Shown piece by piece: positions 26,239-61,532 of a stretch of DNA of 64,000 nt. This stretch comes from Gari tellinella. Its lineage: Eukaryota > Mollusca > Bivalvia > Cardiida > Psammobiidae. The stretch lies in NCBI GenBank assembly GCA_922989275.2, contig OV277869.1, forward strand, positions 22,826,189-22,890,188. Direction: 5' to 3'. The notes under the pieces are model-generated. The model was not told the origin of the DNA. It was given only the letters and a program-made list of their open reading frames with translations, and searched no databases. The position numbers and the translations under genes are program-made. Numbering within the stretch: position 1 is the first letter of the stretch; each line of letters starts with the position of its first letter.

Positions 26239-29200
26239 CAGTAAAAACCTCGCTATTACGACAACTAAAATGAAGGCTAATTGGCTATATAAAAGAGAGG
26301 TGATAGGAGCTTTCTGTTTCACTGTTACCTTGCTTTAAGCTGTCACCTCGCTATTATACAGCCTAAAGAAGCTTTCTGTTTCACTGTAACCTTGTTTTAA
26401 GCTGTCAACTTTCTATTATACAGCCTAAAGGAGCTTTCTGTTTCATTGTAACCTTGCTCTAAGCTGTCACCTCTCTATTATACAGCCTAAAGGAGATTTG
26501 TTTCATTGTAACCTTGCTTTAAGCTGTCACCTCTCTATTATACAGCCTCAAGGAGCTTTATGTTTCATTGTAACCTTGTTCTAAGCTCCTCTCTATTATA
26601 CAGCCTAAAGGAGATTTGTTTCATTGTAACCTTGCTTGAAGCGGTCACCTCTCTATTATACAGTCTAAAGGAGCTTTGTTTAATTGTAACCTTGCTTTTA
26701 GTGGTCATCTCTCTATTATACAGCCTAAAGGAGCTTTCTGTTTCACTGTAACATTGCTTTAAGCTGTCACCTCTCTATTATACAGCCTAAAGGAGCGTCC
26801 TTTTTTCATTGTAGCCTGGCTTTAAGCTGTCACTGTTTCACTGTAACATTGCTTTAAGCTGTCACTTCTCTATTATACAGCCTAAAGGAGCTTTCTGTTT
26901 CATTGTAACCTTGCTTTCAGCTGTCACCTCTCTATTATACAGCCTAAAGGAGCTTTCTGTTTCATTGTAACCTTGCTTTAAGCTGTCACCTCTCTTATAC
27001 AGCCTAAAGTAGCTTTCTGTTTCATTGTAACCTTGCTTTAAGCTGTCACCTCTCTATTACACAGACTAAAGGAGCTTTCTGTTTCACAGTAACCTTGCTT
27101 TAAGCTGTCATCTCTCTATTATACAGACTAAAGGAGCTTTCTATTTCATTGTAACCTTGCTTTAAGCAGTCACCTCTCTATTAAACAGCCTAAAGGAGCT
27201 TTCTGTTTCATTGTAACCTTGCTTTAAGCTGTCACCTCTCTATTATACAGCCTAAAGGAGCTTTCTTTTTCATTGTAACCTTGCTTTTAGTGGTCACCTC
27301 TCTATTATACAGCCTAAAGGAGCTTTCTGTTTCACAGTAACCTTGCTTTAAGCTGTCACCTCTCTATTATACAGCCTAAAGGAGCTTTCTGTTTCATTGT
27401 AACCTTGCTTTAAGCTGTCACCTCTCTATTACACAGCCTAAAGGAGCTTTCTGTTTCATTGTAACCTTGCTTTAAGCTGTCACCTCTCTATTATACAGCC
27501 TAAAGGAGCTTTCTGTTTCACTGTAACATGACTTTCAGCTGTCACCTCTCTATTATACAGCCTAAAGGAGCTTTCTGTTTCATTGTAACCTTGCTTTTAA
27601 GCTGTCACCTCTCTATTATACAGCCTAAAGTAGCTTTCTGTTTCATTGTAACCTTGCTTTAAGCTGTCACCTCTCTATTATACAGCCTAAAGGAGCTTTC
27701 TGTTTCACAGTAACCTTGCTTTAAGCTGTCACCTTTCTATTATACAGCCTAAAGGAACTTTCTGTTTCATTGTAACCTTCCTTTAGCTGTCACCTCTCTA
27801 ATATACAGCCTAAAGGAGTTTTCTTTTTCATTGTAACCTTGCTTTTAGTGGTCACCTCTCTATTATACAGCCTAAAGGAGCTTTCTGTTTCACAGTAACC
27901 TTGCTTTAAGCTGTCACCTCTCTATTATACAGCCTAAAGGAGCTTTCTGTTTCACTGTAACCTTGCTTTAAGCTGTCACCTCTCTATTATACAGCCTAAA
28001 GTAGCTTTCTGTTTCATTGTAACCTTGCTTTAAGCTGTCACCTCTCTATTACACAGCCTAAAGGAGCTTTCTGTTTCACAGTAACCTTGCTTTAAGCTGT
28101 CACCTCTCTATTATACAGCCTAAAGGAGCTTTCTGTTTCATTGTAACCTTGCTTTAAGCAGTCACCTCTCTATTATATAGCCTAAAGGAGCTTTCTGTTT
28201 CATTGTAACCTTGCTTTAAGCTATCACCTTTCTATTATACAGCCTAAAGGAGCTTTCTTTTTTATTGTAACCTTGCTTTTAGTGGTCACCTCTCTATTAT
28301 ACAGCCTAAAGGAGCTTTCTGTTTCATTGTAACCTTGCTTTAAGCTGTCACATCTCTATTATACAGCCTAAAGTAGCTTTCTGTTTCATTGTAATCTTGC
28401 TTTAAGCTGTCACCTCTCTATTACACAGCCTAAATGAGCTTTATGTTTCACAGTAACCTTGCTTTAAGCTGTCACCTTTCTATTATACAGCCTAAAGGAG
28501 CTTTCTTTTTCATTGTAACCTTGCTTTTAGTGGTCACCTCTCTATTATACAGCCTAAAGGAGCTTTCTGTTTCACAGTAACCTTGCTTTAAGCTGTCACC
28601 TTTCTATTATACAGCCTAAAGGAGCTTTCTTTTTCATTGTAACCTTGCTTTTAGTGGTCACCTCTCTATTATACAGCCTAAAGGAGCTTTCTTTTTTATT
28701 GTAACCTTGCTTTTAGTGGTCACCTCTCTATTATACAGCCTAAAGGAGCTTTCTGTTTCACAGTAACCTTGCTTTAAGCTGTCACCTCTCTATTATACAG
28801 CCTAAAGGAGCTTTCTGTTTCACTGTAACATGGCTTTCAGCTGTCACCTCTCTATTATACAGCCTAAAGGAGCTTTCTGTTTCATTGTAACCTTGCTTTC
28901 AGCTGTCACCTCTCTATTATACAGCCTAAAGGAGCTTTCTGTTTCATTGTAACCTTGCTTTAAGCTGTCACCTCTCTATTACACAGCCTAAAGGAGATTT
29001 ATGTTTCACAGTAACCTTGCATTAAGCTGTCACCTCTCTATTATACAGACTAAAGGAGCTTTCTGTTTCACAGTAACCTTGCTTTAAGCTGTCACCTCTC
29101 TATTATACAGCCTAAAGTAGCTTTCTGTTTCATTGTAACCTTGCTTTAAGCTGTCACCTCTCTATTATACAGCCTAAAGGAGCTTTCTGTTTTACAGTAA

Positions 29201-29960
29201 CCTTGCTTTAAGCTGTCACCTCTCTATTATACAGCCTAAAGGAGCTTTCTGTTTCACTGTAACATGGCTTTCAGCTGTCACCTCTCTATTATACAGCCTA
29301 AAGGAGCTTTCTGTTTCATTGTAACCTTGCTTTCAGCTGTCACCTCTCTATTATACAGCCTAAAGGAGCTTTCTGTTTCACAGTAACCTTGCTTTAAGCT
29401 GTCACCTCTCTATTATACAGCCTAAAGGAGCTTTCTGTTTCATTGTAACCTTGTTTTAAGCAGTCACCTCTCTATTTTACAGCCTAAAGGAGTTTCTGTT
29501 TCATTGTAACCTTGCTTTAAGCTGTCACCTTTCTATTATACAGCCTAAAGGAGCTTTCTTTTTCATTATAACATTGCTTTTAGTTGTCACCTCTCTATGA
29601 TACAGCCTAAAGGAGCTTTCTGTTTCACTGTAACATGGCTTTCAGCTGTCACCTCTCTATGATACAGCCTAAAGGAGCTTTCTGTTTCACTGTAACCTTG
29701 CTTTAAGCTGTCACCTCTCTATTATACAGCCTAAAGGAGCTTTCTGTTTCATTGTAACCTTGCTTTAAGCTGTCACCTCTCTATTACACAGCCTAAAGGA
29801 GCTTTCTGTTTCACTGTAACCTTGCTTTTAGCTGTCACATCTCTATTATACAGCCTTAAGGGGCTTTGTGTTTCACTGCAACCTTGCTTTAAGCGATCGC
29901 CTATCGTAAACACTCTAATAATTGAGATAATTTTGTAGTCGAATTAAATAGGTTTTACTG
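26239..29960. mobile_element. TA-flanked MITE enlarged by an internal satellite
   Basis: The left end is TA + CAGTAAAAACCTCGCTATTA (26239) and the right end is aggttttactg + TA (29960). These are the ends of the CAGTARAACC MITE family, normally about 200 bp long. Here the hairpin core has expanded to a 3.6-kb array, making one 3.7-kb element with intact termini. Confidence 0.7.
26306..29893. repeat. 62-bp satellite array, about 58 copies
   Basis: The unit reads ggagctttctgtttcattg, taaccttgctttaagctgtc, acctctctattatacagcc, taaa (62 bp). Units vary in length (about 50-63 bp) at the left edge and are more uniform in the middle. Subtypes alternate, such as 'tttagtggtcacc' against 'ttaagctgtcacc' and 'cacagtaacc' against 'cattgtaacc', showing duplication of multi-unit blocks. 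The unit derives from one MITE hairpin arm plus part of the TIR. Confidence 0.9.
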
Positions 29961-48212: not shown

Positions 48213-51200
48213 CTGCAATAAAATAAGAACACAAAATCACATTCTAAGTCTTGCTTTAACTTCTTTATTGCAGGGAAACAAATATTATTTGATTATTTGT
48301 TTTAATAGTAGGAAGTACTGTACAATAAATTTTGACCAATTACTACATGAATAAGCATTTTTATGCATTGAATTTATTCCTCCACTGAAGGAAATAGTTC
48401 CAAATTATACAGTAATGTTTATGCATGGATGAGTGAGGGATCCCGATTTATTTTTCTCACAATGCTACATGTATCATAAGAAATCTTTTCTGTAATCTAG
48501 CAGATGGTAGCTTAAAACAAGATGAAAGTGAAGTACAATGTGCCATATGGTGCATTCTGCTTTACTTTCAGCCTGCTTGAAGTTACCATCTGCTACGATA
48601 TAGAAAACATTTCTTCAAGTACTTATTCATGATTGCTTTAGGTGTAACTATTTTCTCAGGAGGAGTAAATTAAAGGAGTAAAAAGGTGTATGAAGGAAAG
48701 GGTTAAGACATAAGGACTCTAGAATTTGAAATACTCTCTAAATCGAAAGTTCTAATTGACTTATCACTAAGACTACCATATCTATGCCTTGTAGGTGTCG
48801 GTGGTAGGACGTTCGACTAGGAAGTTAGAGGTTCCTGGTTTGAGCCCTGTCAGGATCACCGAAATTTTTCTGAGCAAAAAATTAACCCTACATTGCTCCA
48901 CTTCACCCAGGTGAATGGAATGGGTACCTGTGCGGGAAAGAAGTCAATGTGCCATGGCTGCAACTTGCGCCGTATGTAAATTGCCTACTTGTGACTCGAT
49001 GATCAGGGAGGTAAATGTAAAAGTCGGCAGAATACGATACCCGTAAATTAAGACTTTATAAACTTACACCTTTACCTTTATGCCTTTGTCCGAAGTTTTA
49101 CCATGAACAAAAATATTATAGTAGAACCTCTCTATTACAACAACTAAAATGAAGGCTAATTGATTGTATAAATGGGAGGTGACAGCTTATTACAAGGCGA
49201 CAGTAAAACAGAAAGCTCCTAAAGGAGATATCTGTTAAACTGTCACATTGCTTTAAGCAGTCACCTGTCTTTAACTTTATGCACTAATAATTGAGACCTT
49301 TTAGTGGTGGTAATAGAGAGATTTTTACTGTAGTAAAACCTATGTCAGGTGGTCACATGGAAATATTTATAGACATGTGGATACTTCATCAAGGACAAAA
49401 AAAAAAGCAGAATATCCCCCGTCTTGTAAAAGCCTTAATAGGATTCTACGACGTATTGATACAAACCCCCAAAGGGAGTGTTCTGCAATACTTTTGTCTT
49501 GCATTAAGTAGTCAGCTGTCTTGCAGTCTGCCCATGACTTGTGTTTTGACTGCTGATCAGACTATAATCTCAAATATACACGTGTCTTGCATTTCAAATG
49601 AATGTACACTTGTTTGCCAAAGGTTTTGAGGCATTTTTCTTTTACTGGATTACACCTGGGCTCCAGATAAGAGGGAGTAAACTGAACAACCCCAACATTT
49701 TCTTATTCATTTCAGCATCAAATCCTATGGTGTTACTAATCATTAGAATCACCTCGAAGCGACGATTCTAATGAGTGGTGACACCATAGGGTTAATGGCA
49801 AATACGCAAATTTTAGCTTTTGAAATACTCCCCTTATCTGGAGCTCTGATTACACAAGATTGATTGACACTTGGTGATAGGTGAATTGTGGGTGAATATA
49901 CATACCTCCCCAGACGAGGCATGGGACATTGCAATTCGGGCAATCATGTACGTCCATATAAGGTGAAGGATCTGAAGGACTATGAGTAGACCCTGGAAAA
50001 ACCTGTGGCCAGGCGACACTTCCATCACTGTGTATATCTCAATTATGCTGCTGCTGATCACTCTGGATACAAAAAACACAAGCATGTGATTGACAAGACT
50101 AAAGCCTCATAGTTCTACTACAGTAGAACCTCTCTATTACGACCACTAAATTATACCAAATATAAGTTGTTTAAGACAGGTGACTGCTTAAGGCAATGTG
50201 AAAGTGAAACAGAAAGCTCCTACAGGAGCTTTTTGTTTCACTTTCAAATTGCTTTAAGCTGTAATACAGACAATTAACCTTCTTTTAACCCATTACCCCA
50301 TAAATACACATTTTTACACCTCTAATTTATTCCTCTACGGAAGAAAATAGTTCCAAATTATTAAGTTATGATTGTGTATTTTTAGAAAAAAATATCTTTA
50401 TCCTAGTAGATGATAGCTTAAAGCAGACTGAAAGTAAAGCAGAATGTGCCTTAAGGCACATTCTGCTTTACCTTCAATGTGCTTTAAGTGGTCATCCATC
50501 TTCAAAACTAGAAACAGGCTATGGGGTAATGGGTTAAGTGGTCGTAATAGAGTGGTTCTACTGTACATGTATATCAGTTTTGGTGCTCATTTAAACCTTA
50601 ACTCTGGTCTGTTTCTAGTATTGAAGACAAGAGCCGCATGCGGCCCTAAATCGCTCACCTGAGGAACTATTGTGTTATACTCGATGCATAATGAAGTTTG
50701 TCATTGCATGTTTGTGGCCTGTTGCATGAAACTGAAATAACTCAGAATTAGGTTTTCCTGTAGAAACTAGTCTGTTAAACTGATAAGCCCCGGGGCGGGT
50801 CCATTTTTTACCCTGGGGTCAAGATTTGAACTATCTTGGTAGAGGACAATAAGGCAAAATTAGATGCCAACTATAAAAGGTCTGGGCCTTACGGCTTCAG
50901 AGAAGAAGATTTTTAAAGGTTTTCCTATATAAGTCTATGTAAAACTGATAAGCCCGGGGCGGGGCCATTTTTGGCCCTGGGGTCATGATTTGAACAATCT
51001 TGGTAGAGGACCATAAGGCAAAGCTAGATGCCAAATATAAAAGGTCTGGGTCTTACGGCTTCAGAGAAGAAGATTTTTAAAGGTTTTTCTATATAAGTCT
51101 ATGCAAAACTGATAAGCCCCGGGGCGGGGCCATTTTTGACCCAAGGGTCATGATTTGAACAATCTTGGTAGAGGACCATAAGGCAAAATTAGATGCCAAA

Positions 51201-54200
51201 TATACGGCTTCAGAGAAAAAGAATTTTAAAGGTTTTCCTATATAAATCTATGTAAAACTGATAAGCCCTGGGCGGGGCCATTATTGACCCTGGGGTCATG
51301 ATTTGTACAATCTTAGTAGAGGACCATAAGGCGAAGCTAGATGCCAAATATAACAAGTCTGGGCCTTATGGCTTCAGAAAAGAAGATTTTTAAAGGTTTT
51401 CCTATATAAGTCTATGTAAAACTGATAAGCCCCGGGGTGGGGCTATTTTTTACCCTGGGGTCATGATTTGACCAATCTTAGTAGAGGTCCATAAGGCAAA
51501 GCTACATGCCAAATATAAAAGGTCTAGGCCATACAGTTTTAGAGAAGAAGAGTTTTAAAGGTTTTCCTATGAAAAACTGATAAGCCCCGGGGCGGGGCCA
51601 TTTTTGACCCGGGGGTCATTATTTGAACAATCTTGCTAAAGGTTCACAACATGATGTTACATGTGAAATTTGGCTGTCCTAGGACTTATAGTTATTGACA
51701 AGAAGATGTTTAAAGTTTTGACTTTATTTGTCAATATTACGTAAATACGGAAAATGACCACGCCCTCTGGCGGCCATGTTTTTTGACGGATCAAAATTCT
51801 TTGAACAATTTTCAAAGTATATTAATTGAGAAACATTTTGGTGAAAACCAACTTGAAATCGGACGAGTCGTTTTTGAGAAGAAGATTTTGTTTTAGATAT
51901 TGTGCATGGTTGCCATGGCAACAAGACCGATTGCCCCACCCACTTTTTTTTAACAATTTTTGAAGCTCACAACTACAGTATGTATCTGACAAAGTTTGGT
52001 TGAAATTGGGCCATTGGTTTTAGAGAAGAAGTTATTTGAAACAAATTGTGAACAGACGACACGGACACCGACGTATGACGGACGGCAACCGATCACAATA
52101 GCTCACCTTTGTGCTCAGGTGAGCTAATAAATCCCCGCTTAAAGCAGGTTGAAAGTAAAACAGAATGGTGCATTCTGCTTTACTTTCAGCCTGCTTTAAA
52201 CTACCATCTGGTAGGAAATAGAAAATACAAGTCTAGTCCTTTATTGAATATTTTATTTGTTTTTACAATAAATTGCAAAAATTACAAACAGTGCAGACCG
52301 GATCAGAGGGGTCCTAAAGCTCTGGGTCTACACATTTTGCATAGGACACGTGTACTCTTCACCAGAACACTGTTTATAAATGACCAGTATACTCATTGCC
52401 AGGGTTCAACTTCAACATGTTAAAACCTAAAATGCCTGGCATCTTATAATGATCCAAACTGCTTGACTCTGCTGTAAATTTTGTAACTTTATAACTGTAG
52501 TATATCAAAACTATTGGAGATAACAATTCCACCTAGCGTTCAAATTCATTGGGCCTAAAAGATCTAATCCAGTTCCTAATTAAGTCTAGTTCATATGTCA
52601 AAGTGTGTAGGTTTATCATCACTTGTACGGCCTTGCTGTACGAGCACGCTTTTATGGCGATGTGGTAGAGAGTATGACTGAGAACCTGGCGCCCGAGTTT
52701 GATCCGGGTCGGAGCGGGTGTTTCTTTATATTAAAGAGGACCCTGTTACATTTGGCGCCTAATGTGGTTTCTCTTACTGTATTTGCTCCGAGTTCGACCC
52801 CTAGTCGTTCTCATACCCATATAGAAAGTGTGTAGGTTTATCATCACTTGTACGGCCTTGCTGTACAAGCACGCTTTGATGGCGATGTGGTAGAGTGCAT
52901 GACTGCGAACCTGGCGACCTGGGTCGGGGGGTTTCTTTATAAGAGTACCTGGCTACACATAGTTTACAAATAAGAATTCTTTTCTATTTTATATATTGCA
53001 AAATGACAACCAGTGCAGATCCAGATCAGAGGGCTCCTTGAGGAGCCCTCTGATTTGGGTCTACACTTTTTGCATAGGATAAGTGTATTCTCAACATGTT
53101 CCTAAATGATGCACATACACTGCATACTTACACAAACGGAAAGTAGAGAAGCCGGGACAAGATCCACACTGCGACAAATATCCACAGCAAAAACCCACTC
53201 ACATTTTTATATCCACTATATTTCAACATCTTGGCTGCCTAGCAAAACACAAACAAAACGTTATCATTTCTACAGAGCATCTAGCAATGGTGTCAAACCT
53301 ATTTTAACCCAAGTCTTCCCTTTGAAACCTTTACCTGCTAGGATCAATAAAGCTTACATAAGCAAATGGTTTGGTTCCAGGTCATACGCCACTAAACCCA
53401 TAGTCTGTTTCTAGTTTTGAAAACGGGTGACCACTTAAAGCAGGTTAAAAATAAAGCAGAATGTGCCTTAAGGCACATTCTGCTTTACTTTCAGCCTTCT
53501 TTAAGCTACCATCTCTAAGAATAAAGGAATTTTTTCTAATAATACACAATTATAACTTAATAAAATCGAAACTATTTTATTCCGTAGAGGAATAAATTAG
53601 AGGCGTAAAAAGGTGTATGTATGGGGTAACGGGTTAATGTGACGTCTGATCAGGATCCAAACTGTTTGACACTTATATAAACCCTTTAAGTCAAACTGCC
53701 TTAAATTCTAAACTTTAGAAATAAATGCAGACGATAAGTTTGTAAGCAGATGATATTATGGCAGTGACTGTGTAAGATGGGTTTGGATGTGATAATGGCA
53801 GTGAAAGGGTTAACCTTAGTCTCCATAGAAACATCATTCCACTTCCTTGCCTTTTCCTCATACAGATATGTTTCATGCTTGCTACTTCAATATTCTTTAT
53901 CCTTATATACATGATATTTATATACAGTGCTCCCTTCCTTCAACGGCCCTCCAAACAACGATTCCCTCTTTACAAAAACTCTTACCACTGCTGTTCCCAA
54001 AACAAGACAATTATGTCCAGCCTTTTCATGGCTGCAATATCGTCTGCTTATAATTGTCGTCTGCTATTTTTCTCAAAGTCACATATTGGACATTTTGACA
54101 GAAAAGAATATAATGACGAACGAAAAACAGCTTGAAATTAGATCAGACGCCGTGGAATGTGGCGTCTGGTCTGGATTCAAGCTGTTTGCAAATGTCAGCC

Positions 54201-57200
54201 AATTTCCATCCCTATAACGACTCCCTTCGGACAACGAACACAATTTTTGTCTCCCTTTGGGTGTCGTTGTAGAGAGGGGACGCTGTACATCTACTACATC
54301 CTGATTAATGAGCCATAGGAATCTTTTCCTATATCTGGACTGCTTAACCAATTCCCACATAGCCTGTTTCCAGTTTTGAAAACAAGTAGCCATTTAAAGC
54401 ACGTTGAAAGTAAAGCAGAATGCACCTTAAGGCGCATTATGCTTTACTTTCAGCCTGCTTTAACCTATTACGCCATGGATACACCTTTTACACCTTTGAT
54501 TTATTCCTACACTGAAGAAAAATGATCCACATTAATGATTATGCATTCATGAAATGAATATGTATCATCAGAAATATGTTCTTAATTCTAGTAGATGATA
54601 GCTTAAAGCAGTTTGAAAGTAAAGCAGAATGCGCCTAACGGCGCATTCTGCTTTAGTTTCAACCTGCTTTAAGTGGTCACCTCTCTTCCATACTAGAAAT
54701 AAGCTATGGGGTAATGGGTTAAGGTACAAGCTGCTAGAATATAGATTGTTTTAATAGAATGTATAATGATTGTATAGAGGTAGAACTATTTTCTTCAGTT
54801 GAGGAATTAATCAAAGCTATTACAAGACCGTGTTTAATAAATGCTTATACCCCAGGTAGCATCTGTCAATATAAATTATTCTGAATTTTGCCTAAGCCCT
54901 AATTAGGTCAAGGTCAAGGTCAAAATCAATATTAGGTAATACAGGTTTATTGGCAGTGGTCAAAGAAAGTTCTGTATAAGTATCAAAGCATCGTAGTCAC
55001 TTCTGTTGATGCTAGACAAAACTGTAAAATCTAGTTAACCAAGAAAGAGCTCTTTTTAAATAAGAAAGAGCTCTTTTTAAATATTCTAAGTTCAAATTGG
55101 GTCAAGGTCGTGGTCAATCAAGGTCCGGTAACAGGGATGGATTGGTAGTGGTCCAAGGCAACAACTGTATAAGTATCAAAGCCTTGTAGTCAGTTTTGTT
55201 AAGGCTAGACATAACAGTAAAATCTAGTTAAACAAGAAATAACCCATTTACAATATGCTAAATTTAAATTAGGTCAAAGTCAAGGTTTGGTGATATTGGT
55301 GGATTGGGAATGGCCGAAGGCAACAACTGTATAAGTATCTGAGTATTTTTGAGTCAGTGGTGTTGATAATAGATAAAACGGTACAATCTAGTTAACCTTT
55401 TTACAGACACAGCCATGCACAGGACTATCAGTATATTATCTATAGGTGCTGGGGGCATAAAAAGGCAAATTTATAGGGTAATGGGTAAACTCAGGCTCAA
55501 AGGAATAAAACAGAACTCGCCCCAGGAAGATTTCAGAAATCTTTTCTGCTTAACTTTAAGCCTGCTTTAAACAGTCATCTGTCTTTATACATTGAAAACA
55601 AACTATCAGAGAAAGGTTTGACCCCCCCCCCCCATTTGTTTGTTTTGGATATTGGAGACATCAATGGTTACTAAGCAGGCTGAAAGTAAAGTGGAGCATT
55701 CTGTTTTACATCAACCTGAGTTCATGTTATCAAGGTTGAACAGTACAAATATAAGAGCAAGTGGTTTTGTTCCCAGAGTTGTTTTTGCGTTGTTAGTGAG
55801 CAAGTACAACAAGCACATTGGGACCAAAAATCTTATTCGGTTTTCAAAGACTTCCGGTATTAGGAAGTTCAGTTCACCCTTTACTATGCTGCATATGCAT
55901 TTGATTTATTCTTCTACAGAAAAAATTATGGAATATTTCCTATATCTTAGTAGATGGAAGCTAAAACAGGATAAAAGTAAAGCAGAATGTGCCTTAAGGC
56001 ACATTCTGCTTTACTTTCAACCTGCTATTAAGTGGTCACCTGTCTTCAGAAACAGGCTATGGGGTAATGGGTAAACCCGGTTTAAGTGGTCATCTGCCTT
56101 CAAAAAGAGAACCAGGCCATGGGGCAAAGGGTAATCATTATACTTACTGCCATTGGAACGTCAGCCACATCATGGCACAATAACACTAGGGTTCCTATCC
56201 TGACATAGTTGACACCCCAGGAGAAAAATATGAGAAGCATTGTGACTACATGATGAACTATCATCTGAGAGAAGTCCTGAAATACAAACAGCATGGTGAC
56301 TACATGATGAACTATCATCTGAGAGAAGTCCTGAAAGATAAACAGCATGGTGACTACATGATGAACTATCATCTGGGAGAGGTCCTGAAATATAAACAGC
56401 ATGGTGACTAAAAATCATCTGGGAGAAGTCCTGAAATATAAACAGCATGGGGACTACATGATGAACTATCATCTGAGAGAAGTCCTGAAATGTAAACAGC
56501 ATGGGGACTACATGATGAACTATCATCTGGGAGAAGTCCTGAAATATAAACAGCATGGTGACTACATGATGAACTATCATCTGGGAGAAGTCCTGAAATA
56601 TAAACAGCATGGTGACTACATGATGAACTATCATCTGAGAGAAGTCCTGAAATATAAACAGTATGGTGACTACATGATGTAATATCATCTGAGAGAAGTC
56701 CTGAAATATAAACAACATGGGGACTACATGATGAACTATCATCTGGGAGAAGTCCTGGAATATGAGATACATGGTGACTACATGGTGAACTATCATCTGG
56801 GAGAAGTCCTGAAATATAAACAGCATGGTGACTACATGATGAACTATCATCTGAGAGAAGTCCTGAAATATAAAAAGCATGGTGATTACATGATGAACTA
56901 TCATCTGGGAGAAGTACTGAAATATAAACAGTATGGTGACTACATGATGTAATATCATCTGAGAGAAGTCCTGAAATATAAACAACATGGGGACTACATG
57001 ATGAACTATCATCTGGGAGAAGTCCTGGAATATGAGATACATGGTGACTACATGGTGAACTATCATCTGGGAGAAGTCCTGAAATATAAACAGCATGGTG
57101 ACTACATGATGAACTATCATCTGAGAGAAGTCCTGAAATATAAAAAGCATGGTGATTACATGATGAACAATCATCTGGGAGAAGTCCTGAAATATAAACA

Positions 57201-60200
57201 GCATGGGGACGACATGATGAACTATCATCTGAGAGAAGTCCTGAAATATAAACAGCATGGGTGACTACATGATGAACTATCATCTGGGAGAAGTCCTGGA
57301 ATATGAGATACATGGTGACTACATGATGAACTATCATCTAGGACTATCATCTAGGAGAAGTCCTGAAATATAAAAAGCATGGTGACTACATGATGAACTA
57401 TCATCTGGGAGAAGTCCTGAAATAAAAACAGCATGGGGACTACATGATGAACTATCATCTGGGAGAAGTCCTGAAATATAAACAGCATGGGTGACTACAT
57501 GATGAACTATCATCTGGGAGAGGTCCTGAAATATAAACAGTATGGTGACTACATGATGAACTATCATCTGGGAGAAGTCCTGGAATATGAGATACATGGT
57601 GACTACATGGTGAACTATCATCTAGGAGAAGTCCTGAAATATAAACAGCATGGTGACTACATGATGAACTATCATCTAGGAGAAGTCCTGAAATATAAAC
57701 AGTATGGTGACTACATGATGAACTATCATCTGGGAGAGGTCCTGAAATATAAACAGCATGGTGACTACATGATGAACTATCATCTGGGAGAGGTCCTGAA
57801 ATATAAACAGCATGGTGACTACATGATGAACTATCATCTGGGAGAGGTCCTGAAATATAAACAGTATGGTGACTACATGATGATCTATCATCTGGGAGAG
57901 GTCCTGAAATATAAACAGCATGGGGGCTACATGATGAACTATCATCTGAGAGAAGTCCTGAAATATAAACAGCATGGGTGACTACATGATGAACTATCAT
58001 CTGGGAGAAGTCCTGGAATATGAGATACATGGTGACTACATGATGAACTATCATCTAGGACTATCATCTAGGAGAAGTCCTGAAATATAAAAAGCATGGT
58101 GACTACATGATGAACTATCATCTGGGAGAAGTCCTGAAATAAAAACAGCATGGGGACTACATGATGAACTATCATCTGGGAGAAGTCCTGAAATATAAAC
58201 AGCATGGGTGACTACATGATGAACTATCATCTGGGAGAGGTCCTGAAATATAAACAGTATGGTGACTACATGATGAACTATCATCTGGGAGAAGTCCTGG
58301 AATATGAGATACATGGTGACTACATGGTGAACTATCATCTAGGAGAAGTCCTGAAATATAAACAGCATGGTGACTACATGATGAACTATCATCTAGGAGA
58401 AGTCCTGAAATATAAACAGTATGGTGACTACATGATGAACTATCATCTGGGAGAGGTCCTGAAATATAAACAGCATGGTGACTACATGATGAACTATCAT
58501 CTGGGAGAGGTCCTGAAATATAAACAGCATGGTGACTACATGATGAACTATCATCTGGGAGAGGTCCTGAAATATAAACAGTATGGTGACTACATGATGA
58601 TCTATCATCTGGGAGAGGTCCTGAAATATAAACAGCATGGGGGCTACATGATGAACTATCATCTGAGAGAAGTCCTGAAATATAAAAAGCATGGTGATTA
58701 CATGATGAACTATCATCTAGGAGAAGTCCTGAAATATAAACAGCATGGTGACTACATGATGAACTATCATCTAGGAGAAGTCCTGAAATATAAACAGTAT
58801 GGTGACTACATGATGAACTATCATCTAGGAGAAGTCCTGAAATATAAACAGTATGGTGACTACATGATGATCTATCATCTAGGAGAAGTCCTGAAATATA
58901 AACAGTATGGTGACTACATGATGATCTATCATCTGGGAGAAGTCCTGGAATATAAAGAGCATGGGGGCTACATGATGAACTATCATCTGGGAGAAGTCCT
59001 GAAATATAAACAGCATGGTGACTACATGATGAACTATCATCTAGGAGAAGTCCTGAAATATAAACAGCATGGTGACTACATGATGAACTATCATCTAGGA
59101 GAAGTCCTGAAATATAAACAGTATGGTGACTACATGATGAACTATCATCTAGGAGAAGTCCTGAAATATAAACAGCATGGTGACTACATGATGAACTATC
59201 ATCTGGGAGAGGTCCTGAAATATAAACAGCATGGTGACTACATGATGAACTATCATCTAGGAGAAGTCCTGAAATATAAACAGTATGGCGACTACATGAT
59301 GATCTATCATCTGGGAGAAGTCCTGAAATATAAAGAGCATGGGGGCTACATGATGAACTATCATCTGGGAGAAGTCCTGAAATATGAGAAGCATTGTGAC
59401 TACATGATGAACTATCAGAAGTTGAATAAAGTAAGAGTGAATGAAGTTGTCAGGCGGTAGATAGTTGTACTGGTATATGATTTCCATGTCTCTATTAATC
59501 TAATAAAAATTTAATCCAAGACACTAAGGACAGATTAAACTACTTGTACATTTTTATTAATAAAGCTGTAATACATTTCCCTTTTGATACTGAACAAGTA
59601 TTCCAAGTTTGGATACCTTTTATAGTTATTGAGAAATGTTTTTTCTTACAAAAACCTTAACCAAACAAGAGCCCAATGGGCTCTAAGGTGCTCACCAGAG
59701 TACAACGTTCCAAGATTTAACTAAGACTTAATCACTAAAGGTTAATAATACCCCCACAAGCACCTTGTCACAAGAAGCAAACATGTCAAAATAATGTAGA
59801 TGTGTGTACTCCTTATGAACTAGAGGGTTCATAAGACTTTTCTATGATTTGACCTAACGACCTACTTTTTGATCTGTCATAACTCATATTCATACATTAT
59901 CTAGATTTTGTCTAGGTGATTCTTTTAAGCAATTCTCATGATTTGGGGTAAAATGTGGTCCCTAAAGTGTCCAAAAGTTTTTTTTTATGATTTGACCAAC
60001 TGACCTACTTTTTATTCAGACATAACCTATATTCATAAATGACCTAGATTTTGTCAAGGTGGTCTACTTGAAGTAGTTTCATTAATGTAGGGCAAAAGAT
60101 GTGGGCCCTAGAGTACTTTGAAGCTTTTCCTATGATTTGACCTACTGGCCCACTTTTTGCCTCCCAGTAATCCATATTACTACATAGCCTAGTTTTTGTT

Positions 60201-61532
60201 AAGGTGATAATTCTGAGCAAGTTTTATGAAATTATAGCTAAAATTATGACTCCTGTAGTGTTTGAAAGCTTTTTCTATATTTTGACCTACTTTTAAACCT
60301 TAACGTAACCCATATTCACTTATGTATAGTGGTAAATATGCTATTCCTACCCATTTACGCGTTAATCTATGCGTAAGAAACTCATAGTGAACGGTTAACG
60401 AACGGTTAACGCCTAACGATTTTAACCCGTTTAAACGCGTAATAAACGATTATACAAATACAGTCTCGGCTTAGGGGTCCATCGGCTAAGTGATGACCCT
60501 TTCATCCGGGCTCTTTTAAACGTGTAAAGAAACGGCTAGGAAACGCGTTTAACGAAATGGATAATAAACACGTAAGAAACGCTTAAGAAACGGATAAAAT
60601 GGGTAGGAATAGCGTATTTATCACTGTAACCCATATCCACACAAAGCTTAGCTTTTTTCAAGATAACCATTCAAAGCAAGTTTTAAGAAGACTGGGCAAA
60701 AAATATGACCTCTGGAGTACGGTAGCAAAATGCTGTTTCTGTGATTTGACCTACTGACCTACTTTATGACCCCACATAACCTATATTCCAGTATGACCTA
60801 AACTTTATCAAGTACATGATACTGAAAAAAACTCATAAATATATAGCAACAAATATGACTTATAGAAGGTTTTTAACTTTTAATTTGATATTTCCGAACA
60901 ACAAAAATGACCACGCCCTCTGGCGACCATGTTTTTTGACACATCAAATTACTTTTAACAACTATTGAAGTCTATCCATTGAGAAACATTTCAGTAAAAA
61001 CCAAATTGAAATCAGACCGTTGGTTTTGGGGTAGAAGATTTTTCTAGATATTGTGCATGGTTGCCATGGCAACAAGACCATTTTATCCACCCACTTTATT
61101 TTTAAAACTTATAGAGCTCAAACTAATAGCATGTATCTGACCAAGTTTGGTTACACTGGAGCAATTGGTTTAAGAGTAGAAGTTGTTTGCAACTGTTGAC
61201 GGACAGACAGCCGGAAGCCGGACAGAGCGGTATCATAAAAGCTCACCTTGAGCACTTTGTGCTCTGGTGAGCTAAACACTTAACCAATGCAGACGCAGAC
61301 AACAGGGTGATGACAATAGCTCGGCTTTTCCAAAAAGTCGAGCTAAAAAAGATATTAGGACTTTAGAGTTTGAAATACTCTCCTTATCTGGAGCTTAATA
61401 TACCAGAGAAGTCATTACCATTTCCTGATGATCACTCACCTTTCTCTTATGATCTGACAATGTGGTAAACACGAGAGACCAGTAAAAACTCAGCTCCACC
61501 AGGTAATAAATATAGATGTCATATGAGATATG
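48177..61532 (-). CDS. Ceramide synthase (CERS/LASS family), 3' half, five exons
   Basis: Exons on minus: 61532-61440, 56276-56148, 53238-53132, 50062-49906, 48212-48177. All introns are GT-AG and the joins keep one frame of 173 residues to a stop. The product is the C-terminal part of a multi-spanning ER enzyme that N-acylates sphingoid bases with fatty acyl-CoA to make (dihydro)ceramide. Visible family marks, in order: VELSFYWSL, DHKRKDF, HHVVT, SWGVNYVRIGT, HDVAD, AAKM, TM helices, and an acidic C-tail DIRSDSESE typical of casein kinase 2 sites. The His-His pair and HD..D residues of the Lag1p motif are kept, but the usual Leu-Glu that follows is Met-Ala. The 5' exons (Hox-like region, first TM helices) must lie beyond 64000 or were missed. 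Paralogue is undecided. Confidence 0.9.
48345..48705. mobile_element. Degraded CCCATTACCCC-family MITE in the last ceramide synthase intron
   Basis: Contains tgaagaaaatagttcc-like, agcagatggtagcttaaaac and gcattctgctttactttcag strings, with an insertion (gagtgagggatcccgattta) in the left half. Confidence 0.5.
48790..49085 (+). repeat. tRNA-headed SINE
   Basis: The head gccttgtaggtgtcggtggt ... gaggttcctggtttgagccc has A- and B-box-like parts. The body has cacccaggtgaatggaatgg and gtacctgtgcgggaaagaag, and the tail is atacgatacccgtaaattaa with tacacctttacctttatgcc. The 'cccaggtgaatgg...gggtacc' body resembles a conserved domain found in several invertebrate SINEs. Confidence 0.6.
49129..49330. 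mobile_element. Hairpin MITE, CAGTARAACC family
   Basis: Ends tagtagaacctctctattac and tggtaatagagagatttttactg; TA on both sides. The core palindrome runs ggcgacagtaaaacagaaag, ctcctaaaggag. Confidence 0.7.
49680..49860. repeat. Foldback repeat around 'cctatggtgttactaatcat'
   Basis: atcctatggtgttactaatc (49725) pairs with atgagtggtgacaccatagg (49770). A relative occurs at 45420-45580 ('gaatgctatggtgttactac', 'gagtatgacaccattggg'). Ends read gctccagataagagggagta and tccccttatctggagctc, so it is another MITE family with TIR around ctccagataag. Confidence 0.6.
49906..50062 (-). CDS. Ceramide synthase exon, last TM helix
   Basis: 157 nt between acceptor ttttgtatccag and donor GGGGAG|gtatgt. It encodes the loop EIYTVMEVSPGHRFFQG and the last membrane helix LLIVLQILHLIWTYMIARIA. 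LQILHLIW matches the LQ(L/V)LH.FW block near the C-terminus of the family. The loop before this helix is the part reported to set acyl-CoA chain-length preference; here it is not close to any one vertebrate paralogue that I can name. Confidence 0.9.
50121..50562. mobile_element. CAGTARAACC MITE with a nested TTAA MITE
   Basis: Outer ends are TA + CAGTAGAACCTCTCTATTAC and gtggtcgtaatagagtgg + ttctactg + TA. Between its hairpin (50190-50270) and right end lies a complete TTAA-flanked element at 50289-50533. Confidence 0.8.
50289..50533. mobile_element. Hairpin MITE, TTAA-CCCATTACCCC family (nested)
   Basis: TTAA at 50285 and 50534. Perfect ends cccattaccccata / tatggggtaatggg. Central palindrome gaatgtgccttaaggcacatt. 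This is the clearest copy of the family and is clean evidence for TTAA duplication. Confidence 0.85.
50627..52127. repeat. GCTCACC-ended modular repeat with 165-bp units
   Basis: Start acaagagccgcatgcggccc (hairpin), cgctcacctgagg; end tagctcacctttgtgctcag, gtgagcta. The core has six units of about 150-166 bp opening ctgataagccccggggcggg and ending tataagtctatgtaaa. The 3' part (51650-52080) is shared with 60880-61220: 'gaccacgccctctggcg' and 'gttgccatggcaacaagacc'. Confidence 0.75.
52135..52215. mobile_element. MITE core fragment
   Basis: aaagcaggttgaaagtaaaa / ttctgctttactttcagcct palindrome of the CCCATTACCCC family without ends. Confidence 0.55.
52600..52945 (+). repeat. Two partial tRNA-derived repeats in tandem
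   Basis: gtgtgtaggtttatcatcac, tgtacggccttgctgtac and gcgatgtggtagag occur at 52602-52720 and again at 52828-52930. The part tgtggtagagagtatgactg ... gagtttgatccgggtcgg looks like a tRNA head. The second copy has lost several bases. Confidence 0.55.
52985..53100. mobile_element. Core fragment of the 'gatcagaggg' MITE family
   Basis: aaccagtgcagatccagatc, agagggctccttgaggagcc and ctctgatttgggtctacac form a hairpin like those at 23880 and 63530. Ends are not visible. A related piece lies at 52250-52430. Confidence 0.55.
53132..53238 (-). CDS. Ceramide synthase exon with AAKM and a TM helix
   Basis: 107 nt between acceptor gtttgtgttttgctag and donor TTTGT|gtaagt. It encodes AAKMLKYSGYKN, the end of the Lag1p motif and following loop, then the membrane helix GFLLWIFVAVWILSRLL ending YFPF. 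The final GT plus A of the next exon make Val. It follows the 129-nt exon in phase 0. Confidence 0.92.
53396..53633. mobile_element. MITE, TTAA-CCCATTACCCC family, reverse orientation
   Basis: Left end aacccatagtctgtttctag is decayed; right end tatggggtaacggg + TTAA (53634). Central palindrome gaatgtgccttaaggcacatt. A half element of the 'gatcaggatcc' family follows to 53815. Confidence 0.7.
53935..54285. mobile_element. MITE, CAGCGCTCCC family
   Basis: TA-flanked; ends cagtgctcccttccttcaac and cgttgtagagaggggacgctg. The core carries aacagcttgaaattagatca / tctggattcaagctgtttgc. Same plan and size as 22879-23236. All frames here are shadows. Confidence 0.8.
54464..54718. mobile_element. Hairpin MITE, TTAA-CCCATTACCCC family
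   Basis: TTAA at 54460 and 54719. Ends cctattacgccatggataca and taagctatggggtaatggg. It is abutted on the left by a second, partial copy in opposite orientation (54350-54460), again sharing the TTAA. Confidence 0.75.
54890..55415. repeat. Tandem repeat, about three units of 175-190 bp
   Basis: Units open with aattaggtcaaggtcaagg-type text (54900, 55093, 55266) and share caacaactgtataagtatca and taaaatctagttaacc. A 22-bp piece (aagaaagagctctttttaaa) is doubled at 55043-55080. Confidence 0.7.
55870..56076. mobile_element. Partial MITE, TTAA-CCCATTACCCC family
   Basis: Core gataaaagtaaagcagaatg / cattctgctttactttcaac and right end aggctatggggtaatggg. It lies just 3' of the array-linked ceramide synthase exon. 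The 144-codon plus frame (55640-56074) is a chance frame across this and flanking DNA. Confidence 0.6.
56148..56276 (-). CDS. Ceramide synthase catalytic exon (His-His, Lag1p motif)
   Basis: 129 nt, phase 0 at both ends: acceptor ctgtttgtatttcag at 56277, donor GGCA|gtaagt. It encodes 43 residues: DFSQMIVHHVVTMLL, IFFSWGVNYVRIGT, LVLLCHDVADVPMA. The family pattern HH..T......S...N..R.G......HD..D is complete; these His and Asp residues are required for activity in characterised ceramide synthases. The Leu-Glu normally following HD..D is Met-Ala. The exon forms the last, full-length member of the 54-bp array that extends upstream to 59420. Its acceptor tract is therefore made of repeat sequence. 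Confidence 0.93.
56223..56276 (-). promoter_or_regulatory. Proximal 3' splice acceptor inside the array
   Basis: The intron ends ccatgctgtttgtatttcag at 56277. Equivalent in-frame acceptors lie one unit (exon start 56330) and two units (56384) upstream. The next (56430) is only 46 bp further because of an 8-bp deletion, so it is out of frame. Confidence 0.6.
57271..58704. repeat. 717-bp higher-order duplication within the 54-bp array
   Basis: The same order of variant units, including the irregular atcatctaggactatcatct and the aaataaaaacagc variant, recurs with offset 717 (13 full units plus 15 bp). This shows recent block duplication. Confidence 0.85.
59664..61275. repeat. GCTCACC-ended modular repeat with an inserted foldback
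   Basis: Start aacaagagcccaatgggctc (hairpin), ggtgctcaccagag; end aagctcaccttgagcacttt, gtgctctggtgagcta. The 5' ctcaccagag and 3' ctctggtgag are complementary. The core has diverged units with tgacctactgacctactttt. It lies in the ceramide synthase intron upstream of the 54-bp array. Confidence 0.7.
60327..60625. mobile_element. Foldback element, TIR of about 26 bp
   Basis: The ends are agtggtaaatatgctattcc + taccca and tgggtaggaatagcg + tatttatcact. The interior is rich in taaacg and gttaacg motifs in both orientations. Flanks carry similar gtaacccatattcac (60305) and gtaacccatatccac (60626), possibly a long target duplication or a pre-existing repeat. Confidence 0.65.
61440..61532 (-). 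CDS. Ceramide synthase exon with ELSFYWSL
   Basis: 93 nt, phase 0: acceptor ttttatttcttttcag at 61533, donor AGAAAG|gtgagt. It encodes HISYDIYIYYLVELSFYWSL, VFTTLSDHKRK. ELSFYWSL and the DHKRK that joins to DF of the next exon are hallmarks of the TLC domain of ceramide synthases. The intron after it is 5.16 kb and holds both the GCTCACC element and the 54-bp array. Confidence 0.92.

Follow-up and report, generated by a model that had tools for sequence, protein, structure and literature searches.

A ceramide synthase intron of the bivalve Gari tellinella carries a tandem array of its own acceptor and exon start

What becomes of a gene when the beginning of one of its exons, splice acceptor included, is repeated dozens of times in the intron ahead of it? 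The question is raised by a ceramide synthase (CerS) gene on the minus strand of a 64,000-nucleotide stretch of the Gari tellinella genome (GenBank assembly GCA_922989275.2, contig OV277869.1, positions 22,826,189 to 22,890,188), referred to here as the window. Tandem Repeats Finder (TRF) reported a 54-bp tandem array at 56236-59417 of the window (58.5 copies, score 4951), running into the exon that encodes the His-His (HH) motif. We regard this array, with a probability of roughly 80%, as a mirage minisatellite, a term used for boundary-spanning repeats in amphioxus, and as a mostly neutral consequence of local tandem duplications, which are frequent in this genome; splicing would stay tied to the last copy. 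Its parts are as follows, in window coordinates.

56277..61439, minus strand: intron containing the array, 5163 bp (from the sequence).
59377..59428, minus strand: degenerate 5'-edge copy, whose acceptor position (TTTATTCAACTTC) has no AG (sequence and decomposition).
56277..59376, minus strand: 57 complete tandem units, each consisting of 51 nt of exon start plus CAG (TRF and decomposition).
57929..58686, minus strand: exact 758-nt repeat at a lag of 717 bp, a higher-order duplication within the array.
56385..56430, minus strand: 46-bp unit with an 8-nt deletion; the acceptors listed upstream of it enter the exon out of frame.
56148..56276, minus strand: authentic HH exon DFSQMIVHHVVTMLLIFFSWGVNYVRIGTLVLLCHDVADVPMA, 129 nt, donor GTAAGT, last member of the array.

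The repeat unit spans the intron/exon boundary, and the authentic boundary, that of exon 56148-56276, is the member at the array's end. Wrap-around decomposition on the minus strand yielded 57 complete intronic units, 50 of them 54 bp long, four of 55 bp, two of 67 bp and one of 46 bp, and the array takes up 3148 bp of the 5163-bp intron. A sequence-only reading of this DNA had described about 59 units, each composed of TTTCAG and the first 51 bases of the exon, with the real 129-nt exon closing the series. The array, its acceptor/exon-start anatomy and the closing exon all hold; the count resolves into 57 complete units, a degenerate edge copy and the exon, and the unit is CAG plus the exon's first 51 nt or, equivalently because TTT is present at both ends, TTTCAG plus 48 nt. 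Counted together with the terminal CAG of the 5'-edge copy, the acceptors number 58, the last being the authentic one. All are YAG, in the form of TTTCAG at 51 sites and TTCCAG at seven, and 50 of the 58 have a branch-point-like YTNAY motif 31-32 nt upstream, within the Val-His codons. The authentic acceptor is not distinctive among them: over positions -15 to +9, three of the 57 copies are one position away from it and 30 are two positions away.

The earlier reading had also asked whether the same satellite exists elsewhere in the genome with no link to the exon. Across the assembly (1.6 Gb), all 11 exact 18-mer matches to the unit were local, and a DNA search, in which only the best candidates were scored, placed 25 of 25 matches at the CerS locus; a dispersed satellite is therefore rejected. 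So is a coding tandem repeat, given TAG in 14 of the 57 units and the seven units (of 55, 67 and 46 bp) whose lengths are not divisible by three.

The proposed identity of the host gene was confirmed. Its joined exons carry the TLC domain PF03798 (E 2.3e-41), and the nearest solved structure to the protein is ceramide synthase 6 (8qz6, E 2.9e-19). CerS proteins of Mya and Mactra were among the first matches listed, and those of Mercenaria and Ruditapes came from a second search. From this company the host would probably be a heterodont bivalve. The best listed matches are only 60% and 62% identical to the host CerS, and the host's own protein is thus not among the matches listed. Apart from the HH exon, three CerS exons were located:

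61440..61532, minus strand: upstream exon (HISYDIY...DHKRK), phase 0, followed by GTGAGT (sequence and tblastn).
53132..53238, minus strand: next exon (AAKMLKYSGYKN...YFPFV; tblastn).
49906..50062, minus strand: next exon (VISSSIIEIY...MIARIAMSHASSGE; tblastn).

The GTGAGT donor of the upstream exon agrees with the consensus at 9/9 positions. All CerS exons found are open and of compatible phase, the remaining upstream exons lying beyond the window.

The units bear the marks of a shared history. Inner units mostly read C36/G42/T43/T45, whereas the 5'-edge copy and the exon both read A/T/C/C, the edge copy having the exon's own states ACA ATG CTT CTC. Evolution has been concerted inside the array, with the edge units excluded, as PMC3087553 reports for mirages in amphioxus. 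Exchange or growth within the array has been recent, as the exact 758-nt repeat (lag 717) shows. The same variants bear on whether assembly error created the copies or miscounted them. Nothing in an assembly is less reliable than the number of copies in a long array of near-identical units, and a single assembly served here; against this stand the ordered private variants among units together with the 717-bp higher-order repeat, the continuation of the CerS gene on both sides of the array, and similar arrays with other units in other genes. We consider an artefact improbable.

If the upstream acceptors were used, most would lead nowhere. Only three of the 58, the authentic one and its two nearest upstream neighbours, reach the exon's donor open and in frame; for 55 of the 57 upstream acceptors a stop comes before the donor. 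The 46-bp unit at 56430 causes a frame shift immediately upstream of the two open acceptors, and 14 of the 57 units read DFS*, with TAG replacing the Gln codon CAG (a count that includes two 67-bp units where TAG sits inside an insertion). The two open acceptors would extend the exon by 54 and 108 nt (18 and 36 residues). The protein-length variants foreseen by the sequence-only reading are thus conceivable for the two nearest copies only, a stop cutting short the remaining 55 of 57. No GTRAG and no AGGT occurs in the array, and the HH exon itself has GTAAGT. Lacking GTRAG, a copy would not easily serve as a separate exon, and extension of the real exon would be easier.

These frame relations speak for a further reading, that the array yields longer CerS proteins in which the 18-residue HH segment is present once or twice more: the two upstream acceptors closest to the exon are open and in frame, and early duplicates would have kept the frame. 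Against it, additional catalytic segments embedded in the membrane would probably upset the fold, all six upstream acceptors closest to the HH exon of a second CerS gene described below meet a stop after 23 residues, and the relatives fetched show no such proteins. Among 123 fetched relatives (120 were listed from the 288 matches of the second search, and the first search gave six), the HH motif occurs once in 111, a further 11 have a single HH segment in a variant spelling, one is without the exon, and a doubled segment was found in none. We hold this explanation to be very improbable. In a Mya arenaria CERS2-like record (P0005), precisely the 43 residues of the HH exon are missing, which would be either a skipped-exon form or a prediction error.

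Is the array a singular accident of this gene? A search of the genome for the TLC family gave 13 places, seven of which hold an HH exon with the same boundary. In a second CerS paralogue (C14:7624781), 46 acceptors TTTTACAG at an exact spacing of 56 bp precede the same HH exon, and in a third, on C3, an array spans a donor:

C14:7622261-7624781: acceptor array of the C14 paralogue, the last acceptor being the exon's own (L032/L033 span C14:7622261-7624909).
L034:1346-1906: donor-boundary array of the C3 paralogue gene, the authentic donor being its first member.

The C14 unit comprises 8 intronic and 48 exonic nt, its exonic end lying within a few bases of that of the window unit, and the 5' edge of the array keeps a plain intron end, CATTGTTTTACAG. 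From -56 to +48, 27 of the 45 upstream copies are identical to the authentic acceptor, and reading on from any of the six upstream acceptors closest to the exon, one meets a stop after 23 residues. DNA matches to the C14 unit fell at the C14 array in 22 of 23 cases, the remaining one being the C3 paralogue's homologous exon. The C14 HH exon is also followed, from its donor onward, by 37-bp repeats in a decayed state (76% matches). The C3 paralogue (L022), the closest relative of the C14 gene with 93% amino acid identity in the HH exon, has no acceptor array at that exon. In the C3 gene, 12 units of 45 or 50 bp straddle an earlier exon's donor boundary, CGAAACAG|GTAA, and 11 of the 12 keep GT. 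The HH exon is without such an array in five of the seven cases.

A single ancestral array for the window and C14 paralogues is rejected, the units matching their own exon at 0.90 and 1.00 and the other gene's exon at 0.61 and 0.67; differing unit lengths and L022, which shows no acceptor array, also oppose it. A tree of HH exons (15 rows, 43 columns) had 0/12 starred forks, and the independence of the two arrays therefore rests on the non-tree evidence. The suggestion that the window array is tolerated because its unit is divisible by three is weakened by the 46 acceptors at 56-bp spacing in the paralogue and by a 28-bp unit in a kinase gene.

That kinase array comes from a survey of 80 exons from two unrelated families, namely 60 of 138 listed kinase places (taken in the order listed, with matches of at most 300 bp) and 20 of 79 listed mitochondrial-carrier places (short matches picked by hand, with some skipped). 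Match edges served as proxies for exon edges, some matches contain stops, and some places lie in one gene. Expanded acceptor arrays were seen at one of the 80 exons, the kinase exon L072:

C1:73396991-73397419: array of L072/L113, about 15 copies of a 28-bp unit over 429 bp, each an acceptor TTTCTGCAG plus about 10 exon nt.

L053 has one 66-bp duplicate on the acceptor side, with a changed acceptor of its own, and L094, L108 and L122 have short boundary copies in the nearby intron; these four are possibly young or decayed mirages. A 40-bp array at L038 was left uncounted as it stops short of its acceptor, and six further carrier loci showed no array over the match. Arrays cover 0.4% of exon matches versus 3.0% of flanks. 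Local same-strand repeats occurred in six of 160 exon-edge windows (including L084, a 20-nt match counted uninspected) versus 19, 27 and 27 of 160 at 100, 150 and 200 bp outward. Targeting of splice sites is rejected by these counts: boundary arrays appear to belong to a generally high rate of local duplication, thinned at exons, rather than to a process directed at splice sites.

The account we favour, of a mirage minisatellite, would run as follows. A short tandem duplication may have arisen between the acceptor's pyrimidine tract and the T-rich codons 16-18, in a transmembrane helix, which lie about 54 bp apart. Unequal exchange would then have driven growth and homogenisation, both edges keeping the older state. 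By exon definition, in which an exon's own donor is paired with the acceptor nearest to it, the spliceosome would join the donor at 61440 to the last acceptor (56277), and the copies would remain intronic because the last copy alone adjoins the rest of the exon and its donor. A residual cost might persist as low-level mis-splicing, mostly to nonsense, and TAG-bearing copies could convert the exon. The frequency of local tandem duplication in the genome of this bivalve would explain why boundary arrays recur.

Several points weigh against this account. Twelve of 25 variant types in the array are synonymous versus 5.5 expected (simulated P 0.001), and when states shared with the exon are excluded the figures are nine of 22 versus 4.4 (P 0.011). 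This excess, from a post hoc test, opposes purely unconstrained drift; some copies may have a coding past or may have exchanged with the exon. At 56277-59376 the excess coexists with TAG codons and frameshifts. The real HH donor matches the consensus at 6/9 positions, exactly as do the nine best GT sites inside the array, and because such simple counts tie, the claim that copies are donorless rests on the absent GTRAG core. The acceptor CAG columns are invariant across the 57 units, yet not significantly so (P 0.10), since 26 of 54 columns are invariant anyway; selection on the acceptor core is accordingly rejected. Exon-edge windows are half coding, which itself lowers their repeat count. The same boundary was hit in two CerS paralogues, which could hint at something specific, although at a rate of one array in 80 exons, one or more of the other six CerS exons would carry an array by chance in about 7% of cases (post hoc arithmetic). 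Finally, the evidence base is genomic sequence from one assembly and one individual.

Some of these points would suit a regulatory acceptor array, in which occasional use of an upstream acceptor sends the transcript to decay and sets the dose of CerS, array length being the tuning knob. The 58 acceptor cores are all YAG and 50 have the YTNAY motif 31-32 nt upstream; 55 of the 57 upstream acceptors end in a stop; the same exon is affected in two paralogues; Mya record P0005 is without exactly this exon; and an intronic minisatellite of C. elegans is described as enriched beside multiply spliced regions (PMC4039745). On the other side, CAG invariance is not significant, local repeats are fewer at exon edges than in introns, five of seven CerS HH exons are array-free, and P0005 is a database record, perhaps a mere prediction. 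Regulation of this kind seems unlikely to us. Less likely still is a combination in which boundary arrays form an ever-present class of mutation in the genome and were kept at the catalytic exon of two CerS paralogues as decoys for dosage control through unproductive splicing; if true, array length would be a fast-evolving knob on ceramide synthesis.

Whatever their effect, boundary arrays are natural experiments on the choice of 3' splice sites. With 27 of 45 C14 decoys identical to the authentic acceptor, linear scanning from an upstream branch point would place the chosen site at one end of the array and exon definition at the other. That several genes of one genome have such arrays suggests that the duplication of boundaries is no peculiarity of amphioxus. 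The arrays also supply halfway stages in the growth and gain of introns, and they should put gene predictors on guard against decoy exons.

Elsewhere in the window, a large 62-bp tandem array occupies 26305-29894 (8.7 and 49.4 copies in two TRF rows). Words like those of this array were seen by eye near 50240, perhaps pointing to a mobile-element origin.

How does the CerS array compare with known systems? Tandem acceptors of the NAGNAG type are competing 3' splice sites ahead of one exon. The CerS array differs from them in its 54-bp spacing, in its 58 sites and in that these are candidate acceptors only. A minisatellite with multiple splice donors in human IFI6 (6-16) was reportedly described by Turri et al. 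in 1995; its unit is said to be 12 bp. Both minisatellites have units bearing splice sites; in IFI6, however, the repeat is on the donor side and its units are reported to be used as donors, whereas that of CerS is on the acceptor side.

The sequence-only reading knew of no described case. That was mistaken: boundary-spanning minisatellites are known in amphioxus (PMC3087553, PMC3902484) and human (PMC2812944). Human segmental duplications, like the CerS intron, contain variable tandem repeats at exon-intron boundaries, where cryptic splice sites are reported to be activated and new introns formed. Those repeats average a 30-bp unit in four copies and form introns, whereas the CerS copies lengthen an existing intron and leave intron positions unchanged (PMC2812944). 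Where introns are gained through internal tandem duplication (Rogers; Gao and Lynch 2009; the case of potato RdRp; in part after PMC3087553), splice signals inside a gene are likewise duplicated but, unlike in CerS, a new intron is created.

The nearest likeness is with the mirage minisatellites of amphioxus, described in PMC3087553 and PMC3902484 for Adh3, globin and TnC genes and, in imperfect form, for PGBD5. Like the CerS array, they are boundary-spanning repeats with the authentic boundary at the end, splice signals in many copies and edges that escape homogenisation. Their splicing is reported to be undisturbed and their length unstable. The hosts differ, a mollusc here and a cephalochordate there, and so does the scale: 57 full copies in CerS compare with six and three repeat units in the haplotypes of BflGb6 (globin BflGb6/BflGb9 mirages). 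A further difference is that two paralogues are hit at the same exon in the clam. Literature searches aimed at mollusc or bivalve cases listed no boundary array, which is weak evidence as most subscription papers were out of reach. What is new here is the mollusc host, a copy number far above that of the globin mirages, and recurrence within one genome.

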